Shown: positions 42,058 to 63,044 of the stretch, in pieces
Layout of the letters: every line of letters starts with the position of its first letter
Numbering within the stretch: position 1 is the first letter of the stretch
Assembly (NCBI GenBank): GCA_017545595.1
Contig: JAFWLO010000005.1
Location: 1 to 64,000, forward strand
DNA from: Candidatus Saccharimonadota bacterium
GTDB lineage: Bacteria > Patescibacteriota > Saccharimonadia > Saccharimonadales > Saccharimonadaceae
Length of the DNA stretch: 64,000 bases
Direction: 5' to 3'
Notes under the pieces: generated by a model
Told to the model about the DNA's origin: nothing
Database searches by the model: none
What the model saw: the letters and a program-made list of their open reading frames with translations, nothing else
Program-made: the position numbers and the translations under genes

Positions 42058-42085
42058 CGCCAATCATAACCTTCTTGTCAACCTC

Positions 42086-42309
42086 ACCAGAGCCGATTCC
42101 GGTATTCTATCCGAACCGTTTGCGTTTCCTCATAGTGGCGACTATCTCTGGCATACTACTGGCCTTAACCATAGAAGTACAGACAGCCGCTACTGGTCTT
42201 CGCATACTTTCTCTACCGCAAGCTCTCATCTCCAGGTCTTCTATTCTACATTCTTTGACCCTCAGGGCGGGAACATCAAGGGTAGCGGCTTTACAGTTCG
42301 TCGTGTCGC
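42086..42309 (+). pseudogene. silent lectin-like cassette A
   Basis: No start codon, promoter or N-terminus. Reading from TRADSGILSEPFAFP to FTVRRVA it encodes the C-terminal part of a FISUMP/C-type-lectin-like domain (YWSS core). Compared with the other cassettes the framework is conserved and about 16 codons vary, nearly all as NNC/NNT. Confidence 0.75.
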
Positions 42310-42316
42310 GTTTTTT

Positions 42317-42539
42317 CACCAGAGCCGACTCCGGTATTCTATCCGAACCGTTTGCGTTTCCTCGTAGTGGCGTCTATAACTGGGACTCTACTCTCCTTAG
42401 CAATAGAAGTACGCACGGCCGCTACTGGTCTTCGCACACTTACTTTACTACATACTCTCACTTCCAGTGCTTCTACCCTACGTTCTTCCGTCCTGAGGGT
42501 GGGGACAGCAAGGGCGGCGGCTTTTCAATCCGTTGTATT
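42317..42539 (+). pseudogene. silent lectin-like cassette B
   Basis: Directly follows cassette A with the same opening TRADSGILSEPFAFPRSG and ends FSIRCI. Variable codons differ from A in the same columns. Confidence 0.75.
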
Positions 42540-42575
42540 CCTCTACGAAGGATAACTACTAAGAGACACAGAAAA

Positions 42576-42860
42576 CTACCAAGTAGCACAACGAACTGCA
42601 AATCCATAACCTTTATTACCACCGTTTTCTGGATAAAAATCCGTAAATGAAAAACTTTGATGATTTGCCCCTCTCCGACTAATCGAACAAGAGGACCAAT
42701 AAGCCCCGTATAAGCTCCTACCGTATAAAACCGCAGAGTTCCAATAATATAAACCAGCATCCAGAAATCCTAGCGACTCGGATAGGACTCCTGAGTTTGC
42801 ATTGTCCTTGCTTCCTACATTCATAGAAAGCGTTGAAATGAAGAGTTTGGAGAATATTTT
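42576..42860 (-). pseudogene. inverted, diverged cassette C
   Basis: Opposite orientation. It reads FSKLFISTLSMNVGS, then SGVLSESLGF, YYWNS, GAYWSSC and GYGFAVRCATW followed by TAG. It shares the fold but not the conserved DNA flanks and lacks the NNC pattern, so it is an older paralogue. Its 5' end stops at the same border sequence (CTTCAAGG then GCGACGCAG) that ends cassette F. Confidence 0.65.
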
Positions 42861-42879
42861 TTCTTCAAGGCGCGACGCA

Positions 42880-42981
42880 GTAGCTCTTGCTCGGGAATGT
42901 CCGGAGCTTGCTAGCGAGGATGAAGGTGCCGAAGCCCCGTGAAGACGGGCGCGAAGGACACCGGTTCCCGAGAAGAGCTAC
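42880..42981 (+). repeat. 102-nt hairpin module H1 between cassettes
   Basis: GTAGCTCTT and CTCGGGAA pair with TTCCCGAG and AAGAGCTAC. Inside are TGTCC/GGACA and CCCGT/ACGGG. It is followed by ACAAGTGCAAGCCCTGAAGA, a tail also found at 43850 and 44697. The 5' half, with its upstream flank, recurs at 44374-44417. Confidence 0.7.
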
Positions 42982-43011
42982 AAGTGCAAGCCCTGAAGAA
43001 AAAATACCATC

Positions 43012-43240
43012 ACCAGAGCCGATTCCGGTATTCTCTCCGAACCGTTTGCGTTTCCTCGTAGTGGCTACTATATCTGGGGTTTTACTGGCCTTGGCAATAG
43101 GAGTTCGTACGGCAACTACTGGTCTTCGCATACTTACTCTACCTCGCTCTCTTACTACCAGCGCTTCTACTCTACGTACTTCGTTCCTCAGGGTGGGAAC
43201 GGCAAGGGCAACGGCTTCGCAGTTCGTTGTGTTTCGTATT
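43012..43240 (+). pseudogene. silent lectin-like cassette D
   Basis: Same framework: TRADSGILSEPFAFPRSG, YWSSHTYST, then NGFAVRCVS. An in-frame TGA precedes it in the shared tail CCCTGAAG, so it is not fused to anything upstream. It ends in a run of codons before the relB promoter. Confidence 0.75.
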
Positions 43241-43278
43241 TAATATTAACAAAATATTAACATTGTACTAACAATATA

Positions 43279-43307
43279 TTGACAAAATAAATAAAATTTG
43301 CTATACT
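43279..43307 (+). promoter_or_regulatory. relB-like promoter with operator repeat
   Basis: TTGACA, 17 bases, TATACT. Just upstream ATTGT-ACTA-ACAAT and a TTAACAAAATATTAAC stretch are likely binding sites for the encoded ribbon-helix-helix protein. Confidence 0.65.
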
Positions 43308-43328
43308 CTTTTCAAGAAAAGGAAAAAT

Positions 43329-43553
43329 ATGCTAACAACAAATGACACAGCAATCACAATCCGAACAAATAAAGAGATAAAAGAGCGCGCTCAACTTCTA
43401 TTTAACGACCTCGGTCTCGACCTCTCGACCGCTATTAATCTCTTTTTACGACAGTCCGTTCGCGAAGATCGTATTCCGTTTCTTATTTCCCGCGACGAGC
43501 CGAACGAGTCAACATATAAGGCTCTAGAAGATTCTCTTGATGAAAAAATCTAG
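43329..43553 (+). CDS. RelB/DinJ-type antitoxin without toxin
   Basis: 74 aa with a ribbon-helix-helix N-terminus (AITIRTNKEIKERAQLLFNDLGLD LS, broken here for length) and the DinJ-like LSTAINLFLRQSV helix. Such antitoxins repress their operon and neutralise a RelE/YafQ RNase. The sequence downstream (43554-43860) encodes no toxin, so this is an orphan. It may stabilise the cassette island, defend against an incoming toxin, or be a remnant. AAAAGGA precedes the ATG. Confidence 0.85.
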   Translation: MLTTNDTAITIRTNKEIKERAQLLFNDLGLDLSTAINLFLRQSVREDRIPFLISRDEPNESTYKALEDSLDEKI

Positions 43554-43653
43554 AAGGCCCGTTTGATTCTTGGTCAGATACGCTGGAATCCCTTAATGCT
43601 TAAAATTAAATATCTAAAGTCCTTCGGATTTGTTTAAAAAATAAATTATTTTA

Positions 43654-43800
43654 TCGACTTCTCTCATGTTTTCTGAGAAACCCTTTTCGAACCCCGATTA
43701 ATTATTACAACTTTCACCTTCGAGAACGAGTAAGCGTAGAGCCCTTTAGGGCGATTAGCTGATCGAGTTCGAGAAATGGCTGAACGTTGTAATAATTATA
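43654..43800 (+). repeat. dispersed repeat element, copy 1, with structured core
   Basis: Opens CGACTTCTCTCATGTTTTCT. TAATTATTACAAC (43699-43711) pairs with GTTGTAATAATTA (43786-43798). Inside lies the core GAGTAAGCGTAGAGCCC/GGGCGATTAGCTGATC (43728-43767), closed by GAAC/GTTC. Copies: 44421 (plus) and 62258-62346 (minus). The tail AAGCCCTGAAGAAA follows before cassette E. Confidence 0.7.
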
Positions 43801-43871
43801 GGGCGAGAAGAAAAACGTTCCGAAGAAAATATGAAAGAAGTCGTAATAAGTACAAGCCCTGAAGAAACATT

Positions 43872-44093
43872 ACCAGAGCCGATTCCGGTATTCTCTCCGA
43901 ACCGTTTGCGTTTCCTCATAGCGGTTATCATCGCTGGGCTTCCGCCAATAACGTTTATAGAGGAGCTTATGCTTCTTATGCCGTTTCGCATGTTTATTCT
44001 ACTACGACGGGCAGACGTATTGATTTTAGTGGCACTCTCTTTAACCCTCAACTTGGAAGCAACATGGGCTTTGGCTATGCGATTCGTTATGTC
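43872..44093 (+). pseudogene. silent lectin-like cassette E, diverged
   Basis: Opens with the same TRADSGILSEPFAFPHSG but diverges after it (RWASANNVYRGAYASY) and ends GFGYAIRYVEE. It shares the 5' anchor sequence base for base with D, F and G, yet the rest is a different subtype, as if anchors had been exchanged. Confidence 0.7.
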
Positions 44094-44137
44094 GAAGAGG
44101 TTGGAGAAGTCTTTAACAGTCGCTTCGGCAATTTCCC

Positions 44138-44357
44138 AGAGCCGACTCCGGTATTCTCTCCGAACCGTTTGCGTTTCCTCGTAGTGGCTACTATTACTGG
44201 CTCTCTACTGACCTTTACGATAGGAGTTCGTACGGCCTCTACTGGTCTTCGCATACTTACTCTACCGCGTACTCTCACGTCCAGTACTTCCTCTCTACGC
44301 GCTTCGGTCCTCAGGGTGGGTACTACAAGGGCTACGGGTTCGCAGTCCGTTGTGTCG
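44138..44357 (+). pseudogene. silent lectin-like cassette F
   Basis: RADSGILSEPFAFPRSGYYY, YWSSHTYST and GYGFAVRCV. It is in a different frame from E, so the two are not fused. Followed by the border CTTCAAGG/GCGACGCAG and the 5' half of module H1. Confidence 0.75.
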
Positions 44358-44420: not shown

Positions 44421-44634
44421 CGACTTCTCTCATGTTTTCTGAGGAACCCTTTTCAAACCTCGATTAATTATTGCAACTTTCACCTTCGAGAACGAGTAAA
44501 TAATAAGTTTTCTCGATTCTTCTCCTGAGTGTCATAAAGAAAAAACACGTATTTTTGGAGAAGTTCACGGACGACCGCGAGTAAGCGTAGAGCCCGAAGG
44601 GCGATTAGCTGATCGAGCGGAAGTCCGCCTGAAC
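44421..44634 (+). repeat. dispersed repeat element, copy 2
   Basis: Contains the common part (44421-44500), the 35-base stretch shared with valS (44507-44541), then the structured core at 44579-44618. The stem around the core is GTTCA/TGAAC, GGAC/GTCC and CCGC/GCGG. Copy 1 has different bases in the pairs next to the core (GAAC/GTTC), so the pairing is kept while the sequence changed. 44635-44793 has the shared tail again and nothing coding. Confidence 0.7.
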
Positions 44635-51881: not shown

Positions 51882-52877
51882 ATGGAAAACCCAAACAAAC
51901 CCGAATCGAACACTCCGAACAAACAGCCGAAAAAACTCCCTTCCGAACCGAACGCTCCGAGCGTCCAACTCCAAAAAATCCTCTCCGCGACCGGTTGGTC
52001 GCAAGAATTTCTCGCCGGAAAGCTCGGCGTCTCTTTTGTTACGCTTAACAACTGGATCAACGAAAAAGTCCTCCCCCGAGAAAAGGCGAAAGCCTCTATC
52101 GACCTCCTCTCCGCAGAAATCCTCGGGGCAGATTCCGTCTCCCCCGCCGAACTCTCCTCCCTTAAATCCCTCGCCGAAAAGTCCAAATCCTCCGTCAAAA
52201 AGATCGTCTCAAACAAACCTCTCCTTAAAAAACTCACAACTTCCCTAACTTACCACACAAACGGAACCGAAGGCTCGACCATGTCCGAACAAGACGTCTC
52301 CGCTGTCGTTTTCGATAACAAAATCCTTAAAAACCGCACCGCGACCGAACAACGCGAAGCGATAAACCACCAAACCGCCCTCTATTTTCTCCTCGACGAG
52401 CTCTCCGAACAAGGAGGAAACTTCGCCTTCTCCTCTTCTCTCGTCCAAGCGACCCACCTCCGCCTCATGTCCGGAATCCTTTCCGACGCCGGCGTCTTCC
52501 GTTCTCACAACGTCCGCATCCGTGGCGCTTTCGTCCCTCTCGCGAACTTCCTTAAAGTCCCTGCCCTTGTCGATTCTTGGTGCGCTTCCGCAAACGAAGA
52601 AACCTCCGATAAACTCCATACCCTCGCCCGTCTCCACGCCGATTTCGAAAAAATTCACCCCTTCTCCGACGGAAACGGTCGAACCGGTCGCCTTCTCCTC
52701 TTTATCATGGCCCTCCGCTTTGGACTCACCCCTCCTATCATCCGCAAGGAACGTAAAATCGCTTATTATAAATATCTCGAGCTCGCCCAAACTCGCGACC
52801 TGACCGACCCGTTAGAAAAATTCCTCGCCGAAGAAATCCTCGCAACCGCCTCCCTAATTGACTCTCTAATTTCTTAG
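51882..52877 (+). CDS. Fic-domain protein with N-terminal DNA-binding domain
   Basis: Fic enzymes transfer AMP or related groups to proteins. 331 aa. Residues about 30-85 form an XRE-like helix-turn-helix (WSQEFLAGKLGVSFVTLNNW). The Fic core follows with HPFSDGNGRTGR near residue 260, complete for catalysis. An inhibitory helix motif (S/T)xxxE(G/N) was not clearly found. The palindromes in its promoter and behind its stop fit self-repression by the N-terminal domain. Role could be a toxin, regulator or effector. Confidence 0.85.
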   Translation: MENPNKPESNTPNKQPKKLPSEPNAPSVQLQKILSATGWSQEFLAGKLGVSFVTLNNWINEKVLPREKAKASIDLLSAEILGADSVSPAELSSLKSLAEKSKSSVKKIVSNKPLLKKLTTSLTYHTNGTEGSTMSEQDVSAVVFDNKILKNRTATEQREAINHQTALYFLLDELSEQGGNFAFSSSLVQATHLRLMSGILSDAGVFRSHNVRIRGAFVPLANFLKVPALVDSWCASANEETSDKLHTLARLHADFEKIHPFSDGNGRTGRLLLFIMALRFGLTPPIIRKERKIAYYKYLELAQTRDLTDPLEKFLAEEILATASLIDSLIS

Positions 52878-53035: not shown

Positions 53036-53433
53036 TCCTCTTCTACGCCGCCACCGCCGGCTCCACCATAACAAACTGGAGTAATGAGGATGCCGTAGAC
53101 TCCATCTGCCCTCTCGGTTGGCAATTACCTAGAAACTCCGGCACCAACAGTTTCTCCACACTCTTCGACTCAACGCTATCTATGAATGTAGGCAGTGGTT
53201 TTACCAGAGCCGATTCCGGTATTCTCTCCGAACCGTTTGCGTTTCCTCGTAGTGGCTACTATAACTGGAACTCTACTGGCCTTAACAGTAGGAGTTCGAG
53301 CGGCTACTACTGGTCTTCGCCTACTTACTCTACCGCGCGCTCTCGCAACCAGGCCTTCTACTCTACGGTCTTCAATCCTCAGGATGGGGGCCACAAGGGC
53401 TACGGGTTCGCAGTCCGTTGTGTCGCTCGGTAG
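53036..53433 (+). pseudogene. longest silent lectin-like cassette G, 5' truncated
   Basis: Open from about 53036 to TAG 53431 with no start codon or ribosome site. It reads NWSNEDAVDSICPLGWQLPR, then MNVGSGFTRADSGILSEP, GYYWSSPTYSTARS and GYGFAVRCVAR. This shows the full FISUMP-like domain of which A, B, D and F are the last third. Its end runs into the 68-bp direct repeat. Confidence 0.8.
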
Positions 53434-59200: not shown

Positions 59201-61891
59201 TTAGATGACTGTGAGCTCTTGTTTGAGACGAGAAATGAGGGCGGTTTTTTCTTCGATTCCCTTTCGGGTTTCTTCGACAAGGTGGGCGGGGGCTTTGTCG
59301 ACGTAGTTCGGGTTGCGCATTCGGGCTTCGAGAGCGTCTAGTTCGCGACCGACGGAAAGGATGCGATCTTCGAGGGTTTCTCGATAAGAATCGGAAATTT
59401 CCGAAGATACGTCGAGATAGATTTCTCGGCCAGAGAGGGCGAGACGGATGCCACGGGGAGAGCCTTCGCAGGAAGAAACGGAGGGGCAACGAGTTAAGAA
59501 TTTAACGAGGTTGGCGTTGTCGGAGATGAGGCTGTCGTCGCCGTAGAGAATGGGCGGGACGGATTTTAGGGCGTGTTTTTGGGTTTTTAGGGCAGAGAGA
59601 ACGCGACGGACTTCTCCGACGGCGGACATGAGACGTTCGAATTCTTCGGCGGAGATTGGGTCGAACTCGAGAGGAGCGGGCCAAGGTTGGGAGATTAACA
59701 TTCCGGAGGTCCAGGAAAGAGTTTGCCAGATGGTTTCTGTGACAAAAGGCATGAATGGATGGGCGATTATAAGGAGGGATTCGAGAGTTTTCTGGAGGAG
59801 GGGGAGGTTTTTGAAGAGTTTTTCGCTTTCGAGGAACCAGTCGGCGTATTTGTCCCAAATCGTGGAGTAGATTTCTTCGACGGCTTCGGCGAAGCGGTAA
59901 GAAGACATACATTTCTCGACCTTTTTTCTCAAGGCGTCTATTTCTCGGCAGATCCAGTCTTCGGACATGTTAGAAGTTGAGAGAACGTCATTTTTATTTT
60001 CTGCTTCGTCGACCCAAGTTTGGATGAGGCGGGAGACGTTCCAGAGTTTGTTACAGAGGTTGCGGCCGGAGATGACGGATTCTTCGGAGAAGGCTTGGGA
60101 CATTCCGGCGGAGCGGCCGCGAAGAATGCCGAGGCGGAAGGCATCGGAGCCGTATTTGTCGACGAGCTCCATGGGGTTTATGACGTTCCCTTTCGACTTC
60201 GACATCTTCTTCCCCTTGCTGTCGAGGACGAGGCCATGGAGATAAACGTCTTTGAAGGGGACTTCGCCTGTTATGTAGAGACCCATCATTATCATGCGGG
60301 CAACCCAGGCAAAGAGGATGTCGGCGCCGGTTTCCATGACGTTTAAGGGGTAGAACGGGGAGCCGGATTCTTCGGTCCAATCCGTGCAGACGATGGGCCA
60401 GTGGGAGGAGGAGAACCAAGTGTCGAAGGTGTCTTCGTCGCGAGCATAGAGAACGCCACCGATTTCTATTTCTTTAAGGTTTGTTCGGGTGTCGAAGATC
60501 CATTCGGGGGCGGAATCGAAGTTTTCTTTCCCTGTCGCGCTAGAGGCTGTGCCGATTTTTTTGAACATCGGGATAGGAATTCCCCAGGGGATTTGGCGGG
60601 AGATGTTCCAATCTTTTAGACCTTCGAGATAGTTGATGAGAACCTTCTGTTTGGACGCGGGGTGGAAGGAGATTTCGTTCTTTTTGAGGTGAGAAATGGC
60701 GGTTTTAGCGAGTTTTTCGGTGTCGATGAACCATTGTTCCTTTAGGGTCGGTTCGATGACGGTTCCGCATTTGTAGCAGTGAGCGACAGAGTGGGTGATT
60801 TTATGAGAATCGAGAAGAATTCCCTGTTCTTTGAGGTCTTTAAGGACGAGGGCGCGACATTCTTCGGTTGTGAGGTCGGAATAGCGGTCGCCACAGACGG
60901 GGAGCATATGACCGTTGTCGGAGATGACGCGGAGGTTTTCTAGGTTGTGGCGTTTCCCTACTTCGAAATCGTCAAAATCGTGGGCTGGGGTGATTTTTAC
61001 GGCGCCTGAGCCGTATTCGGGGTCGGCGTGTTCGTCGGGGATGATAGGGATGGTGCGGGAGGTTAAGGGGAGTTTTACTCGTTTTCCGACGAGGGATTTG
61101 TAACGGGGGTCGGAAGGGTTGACAGCAACGGCTTGGTCGCCGAAGAGGGTTTCGGGGCGGGTGGTGGAGACGACAATGTATTCTTTATGACACTCAGGAG
61201 AAGAATCGAGAAAACCGTCTGAATCTTCATTGACTAATTCGTACTTCAAATCCCAGAGGAAGCCGGGTTCGTCGATATGTTCGACTTCGATGTCGGCGAA
61301 GGCGGTTTCGTGCTTTGGGCAGTAGTTGACGAGCTTTTCACCTCTGTAAATGTAGCCGTCGTTCCACATTTTTTCGAAAGTTTTATACACGCGAGAGACG
61401 ACGTTTTCGTCGAGCGTGAAGGTGAGGTCGTTCCAGGCGCAAGAGGCGCCGAGAGCGCGGACTTGGAGCTCCATGTTCCCTCTCTGTTCTTGGACGAAGT
61501 CCCAGACGCGGGCATAGAGCTCGTCGCGGGAATATTCGAAGCGAGAATGGCCGACGGCTTCGAGGGCGCGCTCGTAAACGACCCAGGTTTCGAAACCGGC
61601 GTGGTCGGCACCTGGGACATACCAGGTTGACTTTCCGAGAAGACGATAAAATCTAGTTAGAGAATCTTCTAGGGCAATTGTCAAGCCATGACCGATGTGG
61701 AGATTTCCGTTCGCGTTCGGGGGAGGCATGACAATAGAGTAAAATGGGCGGTTTTTAAGGGAGGATTCTTTGGAAAATGTCGCGGGATTAACAGAGGTCA
61801 GAGGCTTAGGGTTGAAGGCGGGAGAGGATTCCCAGCCTTGGTAGATTTCTGATTCGAAGGATTTTGGCTCGTAAGAAGAAGTGAATTTCAT
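59201..61891 (-). CDS. valS: valyl-tRNA synthetase
   Basis: Charges tRNA-Val. 896 aa: HIGH motif in PPPNANGNLHIGH, editing domain, KMSKS in GKKMSKSKGNV, anticodon domain and the C-terminal coiled coil (about 830-896). The ATG is six bases after TATAAT, leaderless. Odd point: residues about 226-237 (GFLDSSPECHKE) are encoded by a 35-base stretch (61181-61215) that also occurs twice in the non-coding repeats at 44.5 and 62.2 kb. In other ValRS proteins this place, just before YIVVxTTRPET, is a short variable loop. Confidence 0.95.
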   Translation of the reverse strand: MKFTSSYEPKSFESEIYQGWESSPAFNPKPLTSVNPATFSKESSLKNRPFYSIVMPPPNANGNLHIGHGLTIALEDSLTRFYRLLGKSTWYVPGADHAGFETWVVYERALEAVGHSRFEYSRDELYARVWDFVQEQRGNMELQVRALGASCAWNDLTFTLDENVVSRVYKTFEKMWNDGYIYRGEKLVNYCPKHETAFADIEVEHIDEPGFLWDLKYELVNEDSDGFLDSSPECHKEYIVVSTTRPETLFGDQAVAVNPSDPRYKSLVGKRVKLPLTSRTIPIIPDEHADPEYGSGAVKITPAHDFDDFEVGKRHNLENLRVISDNGHMLPVCGDRYSDLTTEECRALVLKDLKEQGILLDSHKITHSVAHCYKCGTVIEPTLKEQWFIDTEKLAKTAISHLKKNEISFHPASKQKVLINYLEGLKDWNISRQIPWGIPIPMFKKIGTASSATGKENFDSAPEWIFDTRTNLKEIEIGGVLYARDEDTFDTWFSSSHWPIVCTDWTEESGSPFYPLNVMETGADILFAWVARMIMMGLYITGEVPFKDVYLHGLVLDSKGKKMSKSKGNVINPMELVDKYGSDAFRLGILRGRSAGMSQAFSEESVISGRNLCNKLWNVSRLIQTWVDEAENKNDVLSTSNMSEDWICREIDALRKKVEKCMSSYRFAEAVEEIYSTIWDKYADWFLESEKLFKNLPLLQKTLESLLIIAHPFMPFVTETIWQTLSWTSGMLISQPWPAPLEFDPISAEEFERLMSAVGEVRRVLSALKTQKHALKSVPPILYGDDSLISDNANLVKFLTRCPSVSSCEGSPRGIRLALSGREIYLDVSSEISDSYRETLEDRILSVGRELDALEARMRNPNYVDKAPAHLVEETRKGIEEKTALISRLKQELTVI

Positions 61892-62170: not shown

Positions 62171-62200
62171 ATTACAATAATTTTCCAAAGTTTGTCCGTG

Positions 62201-62391
62201 AACTTCTCCAAAAATACGTGTTTTTTCTTTATGACACTCAGGAGAAGAATCGAGAAAACTTATTATTTACTCGTTCTCGAAGGTGAAAGTTGTAATAATT
62301 AATCGGGGTTTGAAAAGGGTTCCTTAGAAAACATGAGAGAAGTCGATAAAACCTTTTCCAAAAATACGTGTTTTTTCTTTATGACACTTAT
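62201..62391 (-). repeat. dispersed repeat element, copy 3
   Basis: Minus-strand copy of the element at 43654 and 44421, including the 35 bases shared with valS (62225-62259). The end sequence AAAAATACGTGTTTTTTCTT occurs at both borders (about 62210 and 62360), so the unit is flanked by direct repeats. 62400-62840 shows nothing I can name. Confidence 0.75.
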
Positions 62392-62848
62392 GATAAGAAT
62401 TGAGAAAGCACAATAATTCCCTGGTTTTTCACACGGATTTTTTTGACATAAATACAATTCCCTTTTATTTTATTTGACAAAAGAGATTTCCGACGGAGGA
62501 AGTCATTTTCCGCCTGTGTAATTTCCAGAGATGTCGCTATTTTTGTTTTTGTCTGCCCCAAAAGTTCGGACTTAAGGATTTTCGCAGTTTCTAGCGCTGT
62601 GACCTTTTGGATAGTTTTATTATATAGGGTTGGGGTTGCTAAGTCAAGTGGTTGCTAATAAAAGGGGAGAGGAAAAATCGATTTGGTCGGTTTTTGTGGA
62701 AAAGCTAGGAAACGGTTTAGACTCGGAATGAGGAAGATGGAAGGAGGAGTTAGGAAGAATGAACTCGGGTTTAGGGAATTATTGATAAGTAGCGAGGAAT
62801 CGGGAAACGCGAACTAGAATGGAATCGAGGATTAAATGGAGAAAAATT

Positions 62849-63027
62849 GAGGTCGAAAAAAGTGGATATACCCCTTGGGCGCTCGCTTCGCTCGCGCCCA
62901 CGTTCCGCATATATCTTAGGTTCCAGTAGTAAATTCTTAGAAGAGGGAAGAAAGGGGAGGAAAGATTTGATTTTTCGAGGTCTAAAAAAGTGGATATACC
63001 CCGAGGCGCTCGCTTCGCTCGCGCCTA
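62849..63027 (+). repeat. two copies of a GTGGATATACCCC hairpin repeat
   Basis: Copies at 62849-62900 and 62977-63027: AAAAAAGTGGATATACCCC followed by a GC-rich hairpin (GGCGC and GCGCC arms around TCGCTTCGCTC). The second copy lies 33 bases before the ATG of the 77-aa gene. Confidence 0.8.
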
Positions 63028-63044
63028 TGTACATTAAGGCTTTG

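Follow-up and report, generated by a model that had tools for sequence, protein, structure and literature searches.

Identity of the repeated piece in valS

The gene for valyl-tRNA synthetase (ValRS) at this locus contains 35 bases that also occur outside genes, and the question is whether a repeat has entered the gene or the gene has lent a piece to the repeat. The stretch of DNA analysed here (the window, 64,000 nucleotides) comprises bases 1-64000 of contig C2 in a draft genome of 745 kb and 15 contigs, which belongs to a very small gut bacterium of the Saccharibacteria. The valS gene was located at 59201-61891 on the minus strand and was found to be intact, encoding 896 aa. Its identity is given by the open reading frame, by homology to the T. 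thermophilus ValRS (1gax) and by the Pfam domains tRNA-synt_1 (E 6e-105), Anticodon_1 and Val_tRNA-synt_C.

The repeated piece lies at 61181-61215 (plus-strand orientation) and is read on the minus strand as (G)FLDSSPECHKE, residues 226-237. It codes for FLDSSPECHKE together with two bases of the Gly codon before it, and YIVVSTTRPET follows directly, which is where the original prediction had placed the encoded residues. The prediction had also claimed identity at three places, and we confirmed that all 35 of 35 bases match non-coding DNA at 62225-62259 on the plus strand and at 44507-44541 on the minus strand. In a search of the whole 745-kb genome this identity has E = 8e-12, and chance was rejected as its source because, judged by 100 shuffles of the window, random sequence should yield no match with three or fewer mismatches. 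Misjoins classically occur at identical repeats, and this is a 15-contig draft, so the three stretches could be an assembly artefact of the metagenome-assembled genome. Such an artefact is scarcely credible here, as a misjoin would bring in the flank of the repeat on one side, whereas on both sides of the piece the ValRS coding sequence was observed to run on without a change of frame. In the whole-genome search valS was the only ordinary gene with a copy of the 35 bases and no series of unrelated host genes was found; the other weak matches are short.

The repeat module

The repeat had been described as 35 bases long, which holds for the part in common with valS but not for the repeat itself, since 152 bases, at 98% identity, are common to the two non-coding copies at 44.4 k and 62.2 k. 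Across the genome, the 35 bases were found to belong to a module of about 71 bases, CGGTCGTCCGTGAACTTCTCCAAAAATACGTGTTTTTTCTTTATGACACTCAGGAGAAGAATCGAGAAAAC, which occurs alone or in composites at 44.4 k, 62.2 k, 62.35 k, 67.4 k and 67.9 k of C2 and at 26.8 k of C7. More diverged relatives are located at C10:118, C10:431, C7:17201 and C2:67546. Within the window, the module copy at 62194-62272 on the plus strand is identical to the valS piece over the 35 bases, and a second, diverged non-coding copy (91%) lies at 62353-62407 on the same strand. The copy at 44494-44572 on the minus strand is likewise identical over the 35 bases and adjoins a cassette array, and the downstream half of the composite repeat, lacking the 35 bases, was recognised by sequence match at 43649-43733 on the minus strand. 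A search for copies beyond the window, as the prediction had proposed, revealed two near-identical ones at C2:67452 and C7:26829 (97%, 34 of 35 bases).

Homology was observed to stop at GAGAAAAC in the copies at C7:26829 and C2:67957, and the valS copy stops at the same base; this end is therefore a boundary of the module. The left end of the valS piece falls inside the module, so the piece is not a whole-element insertion. The module is species-specific, as only weak and short matches were found, in 12 other genomes among 174 of the genus. A plasmid collection gave no match. No strong hairpin was found in the module, with 115-base windows around the copies folding at -20 to -25 kcal/mol.

Many non-coding copies of these modules were noticed within or beside arrays of a cassette of about 230 bases (RADSGILSEPFAFPRSG...KGxGFAVRC), of which there are about 36 fragmentary copies, often without an intact ORF. 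The cassettes are found in the window at 42082-44357 and 53199-53425, and elsewhere at C2 66.8-68.4 k, C7 17-27 k, C3:1-714, C5:397-942, C11:1-1115 and C15:4.3-7.1 k. The cassette ORFs tested against Pfam and NCBIfam gave no match.

Direction of the transfer

We compared 69 ValRS editing-domain loops from the genus and other relatives, with some genomes represented twice. The peptide FLDSSPECHKE was observed in the window's own loop alone and is lacking in 67 other ValRS loops. The loops of the nearest relatives are YELTEKSSPSYIVV in G008, YEIAPENTDSKNSSTPDFIVV in G131 and YPLADDPDQFIVV in G002, and none of them carries the peptide; the absence of these 12 residues from other ValRS proteins is what an insertion predicts. 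Against the G002 loop, the window reads as YELVNEDSD, GFLDSSPECHKE and YIVV, a surplus of some 33-36 bases, which the 35-base piece explains. The nearest ValRS available is at most about 81% identical, which brackets the event loosely. The named relatives recovered through ValRS are Candidatus Saccharibacteria MAGs, several of which come from the ruminant gut. A short loop had been taken as the norm of the family; this does not hold in this genus, where the loop ranges from no extra residues to about 60.

The identity of the 35 bases is the same in both places and by itself gives no direction, so valS might have been the donor, with an intergenic repeat taking up a valS piece and then spreading. 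This opposite direction, which had been left open, is very unlikely because the piece is missing from the ValRS of the relatives and because the non-coding copies are common to one another over far more than 35 bases, including diverged copies that are older than the valS copy. Entry of the repeat into the gene is instead supported by relatives that lack the peptide, by the fitting length, and by non-coding copies that are longer and in part older.

Our preferred explanation, to which we assign a probability of about 0.85, is that valS received an in-frame insertion of a lineage-specific non-coding module, in truncated form, at a turn of the CP1 editing domain. The support consists of the identity, the absence in relatives, the near-exact length, the kept frame, the predicted flexible turn and the end at the module boundary. 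Much of this also bears out the original view that a repeat piece entered the gene without breaking it. The most economical donor would be the identical copy at 62225-62259, which lies 1,044 bases away from the valS copy, in the same orientation and just upstream of valS. The piece may have been copied in by template switching during replication or by a similar short-patch event. Alternatively, the whole module may have entered and half of it later been lost.

Position of the insert in the protein

In the AlphaFold model of ValRS the mean pLDDT is 88, while residues 225-235 are below 50. They link two strands of the CP1 editing domain (203-219 and 238-243), and the model predicts a flexible turn for the inserted residues. 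The T. thermophilus structure 1gax has a short connection at the same place. The insertion would have survived because the turn tolerates additions, and the inserted peptide probably has no function of its own.

Hairpin inserts in ValRS of related species

Three ValRS sites were found to carry much longer inserts in other species, namely an N-terminal loop, the editing-domain loop and the junction before the anticodon-binding domain. These hairpin inserts are about 80-110 bases long and occur in many species of the genus. Most of the long inserts form strong hairpins, with folding energies of about -60 to -110 kcal/mol for the stretches that contain them. Hairpin elements fill the editing-domain loop of G005, G035, G083, G117, G119 and G141. 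In G034 the same insert of about 45 residues is present at two ValRS sites. The ValRS of G136 (1003 aa) has two mutually similar inserts of about 55 residues, one in the editing loop and one at the junction, which belong to a family other than the main one. Since the CP1 turn, the N-terminal loop and the anticodon-domain junction have repeatedly taken up hairpin repeats in other species, valS is, as far as sequence comparison can tell, a recurrent landing place in this genus for repeat DNA that is then presumably translated.

This raises the alternative that the 35 bases are a decayed member of the palindromic superfamily of the genus, inserted whole and later cut down. The 35-base piece and the palindromic family both end in TCGAGAAA, which is only suggestive, and palindromic elements occupy this ValRS loop elsewhere in the genus. 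Furthermore, a short editing-loop stretch in G167 resembles the end of another species' element and may be a remnant, and the whole 71-base module is open, without a stop, in the valS frame. We consider this origin unlikely. The profile of the palindromic family did not find the module or the valS piece in the 428 kb of this genome that were examined, matching only window positions 42888-42975 and C5:269-353, and the module lacks a strong hairpin. The match at 42888-42975 falls in the cassette array.

The palindromic element family across the genus

An ungapped hairpin search proved unsuitable as a census, as it missed elements whose arms have small bulges, and a profile search was used instead. 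One element family was matched in at least 76 of 99 genomes of the genus in a search with a single element, and a second tally (query positions 27-109) gave at least 49 of 60 genomes. These per-genome searches are lower bounds, with part of the candidates scored in some genomes, and the genomes compared are drafts. In a 149-genome sample of the order, matches were confined to this genus, with none in other genera.

Most of the best-scoring copies lie within long open frames. For example, the profile finds 19 copies in G035 (374 kb), 18 of them within open frames no shorter than 276 codons; one of the 18, before xseA, is probably ahead of the true start codon, leaving 17 that are probably inside genes, for the most part housekeeping ones. 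Two inserts each were observed in IleRS, ArgRS, ValRS, QueA and a probable methyltransferase. Single inserts were found in PolA, TsaD, TatD, an RsuA-type pseudouridine synthase, Obg, a GatA-type amidase and a class-V aminotransferase, which is read as a cysteine desulfurase. Pfam confirmed 9 of the 10 host frames scanned, and the methyltransferase had no match at the threshold used. About 92% of the sequence lies in open frames of at least 120 codons, so the location of the elements is not enriched in genes. The notable feature is the preserved reading frame and the lack of stops in the inserts, from which we infer that they are translated. Different host genes use four or more reading frames of one and the same element DNA, on both strands; what is conserved is therefore not a peptide.

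In G035 the stem usually runs past the conserved core of about 83 bases into site-specific sequence, with 3 to 28 outer pairs, and flanks were observed to pair with each other more strongly than mismatched flank pairs do (p = 8e-4). QueA, compared across about 30 genomes of the genus, has two sites that lack an element in some species and are hairpin-filled in others, which makes them a ready data set for gain and loss. An empty QueA site is 13 residues long, and several of the filled ones exceed this by roughly the core length. These lengths suggest that the outer arms consist of host codons which became complementary, and not of extra sequence, and they argue against an inverted target duplication as the origin of the arms. 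Arm pairing differed weakly between occupied and empty QueA sites (p = 0.012). Unlike the QueA sites, the ValRS site J looked by count as if one arm were extra. It is possible that pre-existing hairpins serve as insertion targets, or that the arms are matched later by template switching, as has been proposed for nematomorph mitochondria (PMC6649704).

Comparison with known systems

The original prediction compared the valS piece with the Rickettsia palindromic elements (RPEs). As summarised in PMC10969869, which refers to Ogata et al. (2000, 2002), RPEs are about 150 bp long, form ten families and lie in frame in genes with a conserved peptide. The same paper regards it as conceivable that other prokaryotes have experienced a similar mechanism. 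The comparison stands as an analogy, which is striking in the case of other species of the genus but holds less well for the valS piece itself. By the features given in that summary, the two are alike in that repeat DNA lies in frame in a protein-coding gene which is unbroken; the valS piece is, in addition, absent in relatives. They differ in that the valS piece has 35 bases, is truncated and not palindromic, and is present in one gene. By analogy, then, the piece works like an RPE insertion, but its lack of a palindrome, its single host gene and its failure to match the palindromic-element profile of the genus leave membership of the RPE kind unsupported.

The elements of the related species come closer to what the same summary gives for RPEs, being palindromic and present in many copies, in frame in unrelated housekeeping genes that are not broken. 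On these sequence features they would count as protein-coding palindromic elements, since they are palindromic, repeated in the genome and in frame in unrelated genes. They differ from the RPEs so summarised in having a shorter core (about 83 bases, compared with about 150 bp), in their use of several frames instead of one conserved peptide, and in stems that extend into site-specific flanks. The RPE hosts belong to a different phylum, and the likeness concerns the kind of element.

The coding palindromes of nematomorph mitochondria (PMC6649704) also form long hairpins in coding sequence with arms that match per site, and template switching has been discussed as the mechanism of their maintenance. 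Those palindromes are mitochondrial, perfect repeats of host sequence, whereas the elements of the genus have a conserved core common to many sites. MITEs and REP elements (PMC10969869; PMC3733652) are similarly short, non-autonomous, palindromic and dispersed, but no direct target-site duplication was established for the elements of the genus. REP elements are, in addition, mainly extragenic, and RAYT-type Y1 transposases, which we considered as the mobiliser, were set aside because they occur in just 2 of 60 genomes of the genus. The byps of Magnusiomyces mitochondria, as mentioned in PMC6649704, are hairpins within genes as well; they are not translated, whereas the inserts examined here keep the frame without stops, as expected of translated sequence.

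Neither for Saccharibacteria nor for Patescibacteria did the literature searched, which was thin on subscription papers and preprints, yield a description of elements like these. We tentatively propose, at somewhat less than even odds, that the genus has one or more families of mobile palindromic DNA of about 80-110 bases which have repeatedly entered surface loops of essential proteins in frame. These would use several frames and both strands, have stems running into site-specific flanks and no recognised transposase, and the 35 bases in valS would be a product of the same kind of process. If this is true, a Rickettsia-like system of protein-coding repeats, with a different insertion mechanism, would exist in a distant bacterial phylum. 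With more than 100 genomes of the genus available, and with the same enzyme loops empty in some species and filled in others, one could trace on a tree how translated repeat DNA is gained, lost and tolerated, and the filled and empty loops would serve as natural insertion maps of essential proteins. The window itself offers one small event of this sort, with its likely donor visible 1 kb away.

Other features of the window

A Fic-domain-like protein is encoded at 51882-52877, matching the NCBIfam Fic model with E 2e-10, which is below the cut-off of the model. The region at 62847-63030, which precedes a DUF3800 gene on its upstream side, has two occurrences, about 128 bases apart, of a 26-base unit, GAGGTCGAAAAAAGTGGATATACCCC, and likewise of a short inverted repeat, GGCGCTCGCTTCGCTCGCGCC.
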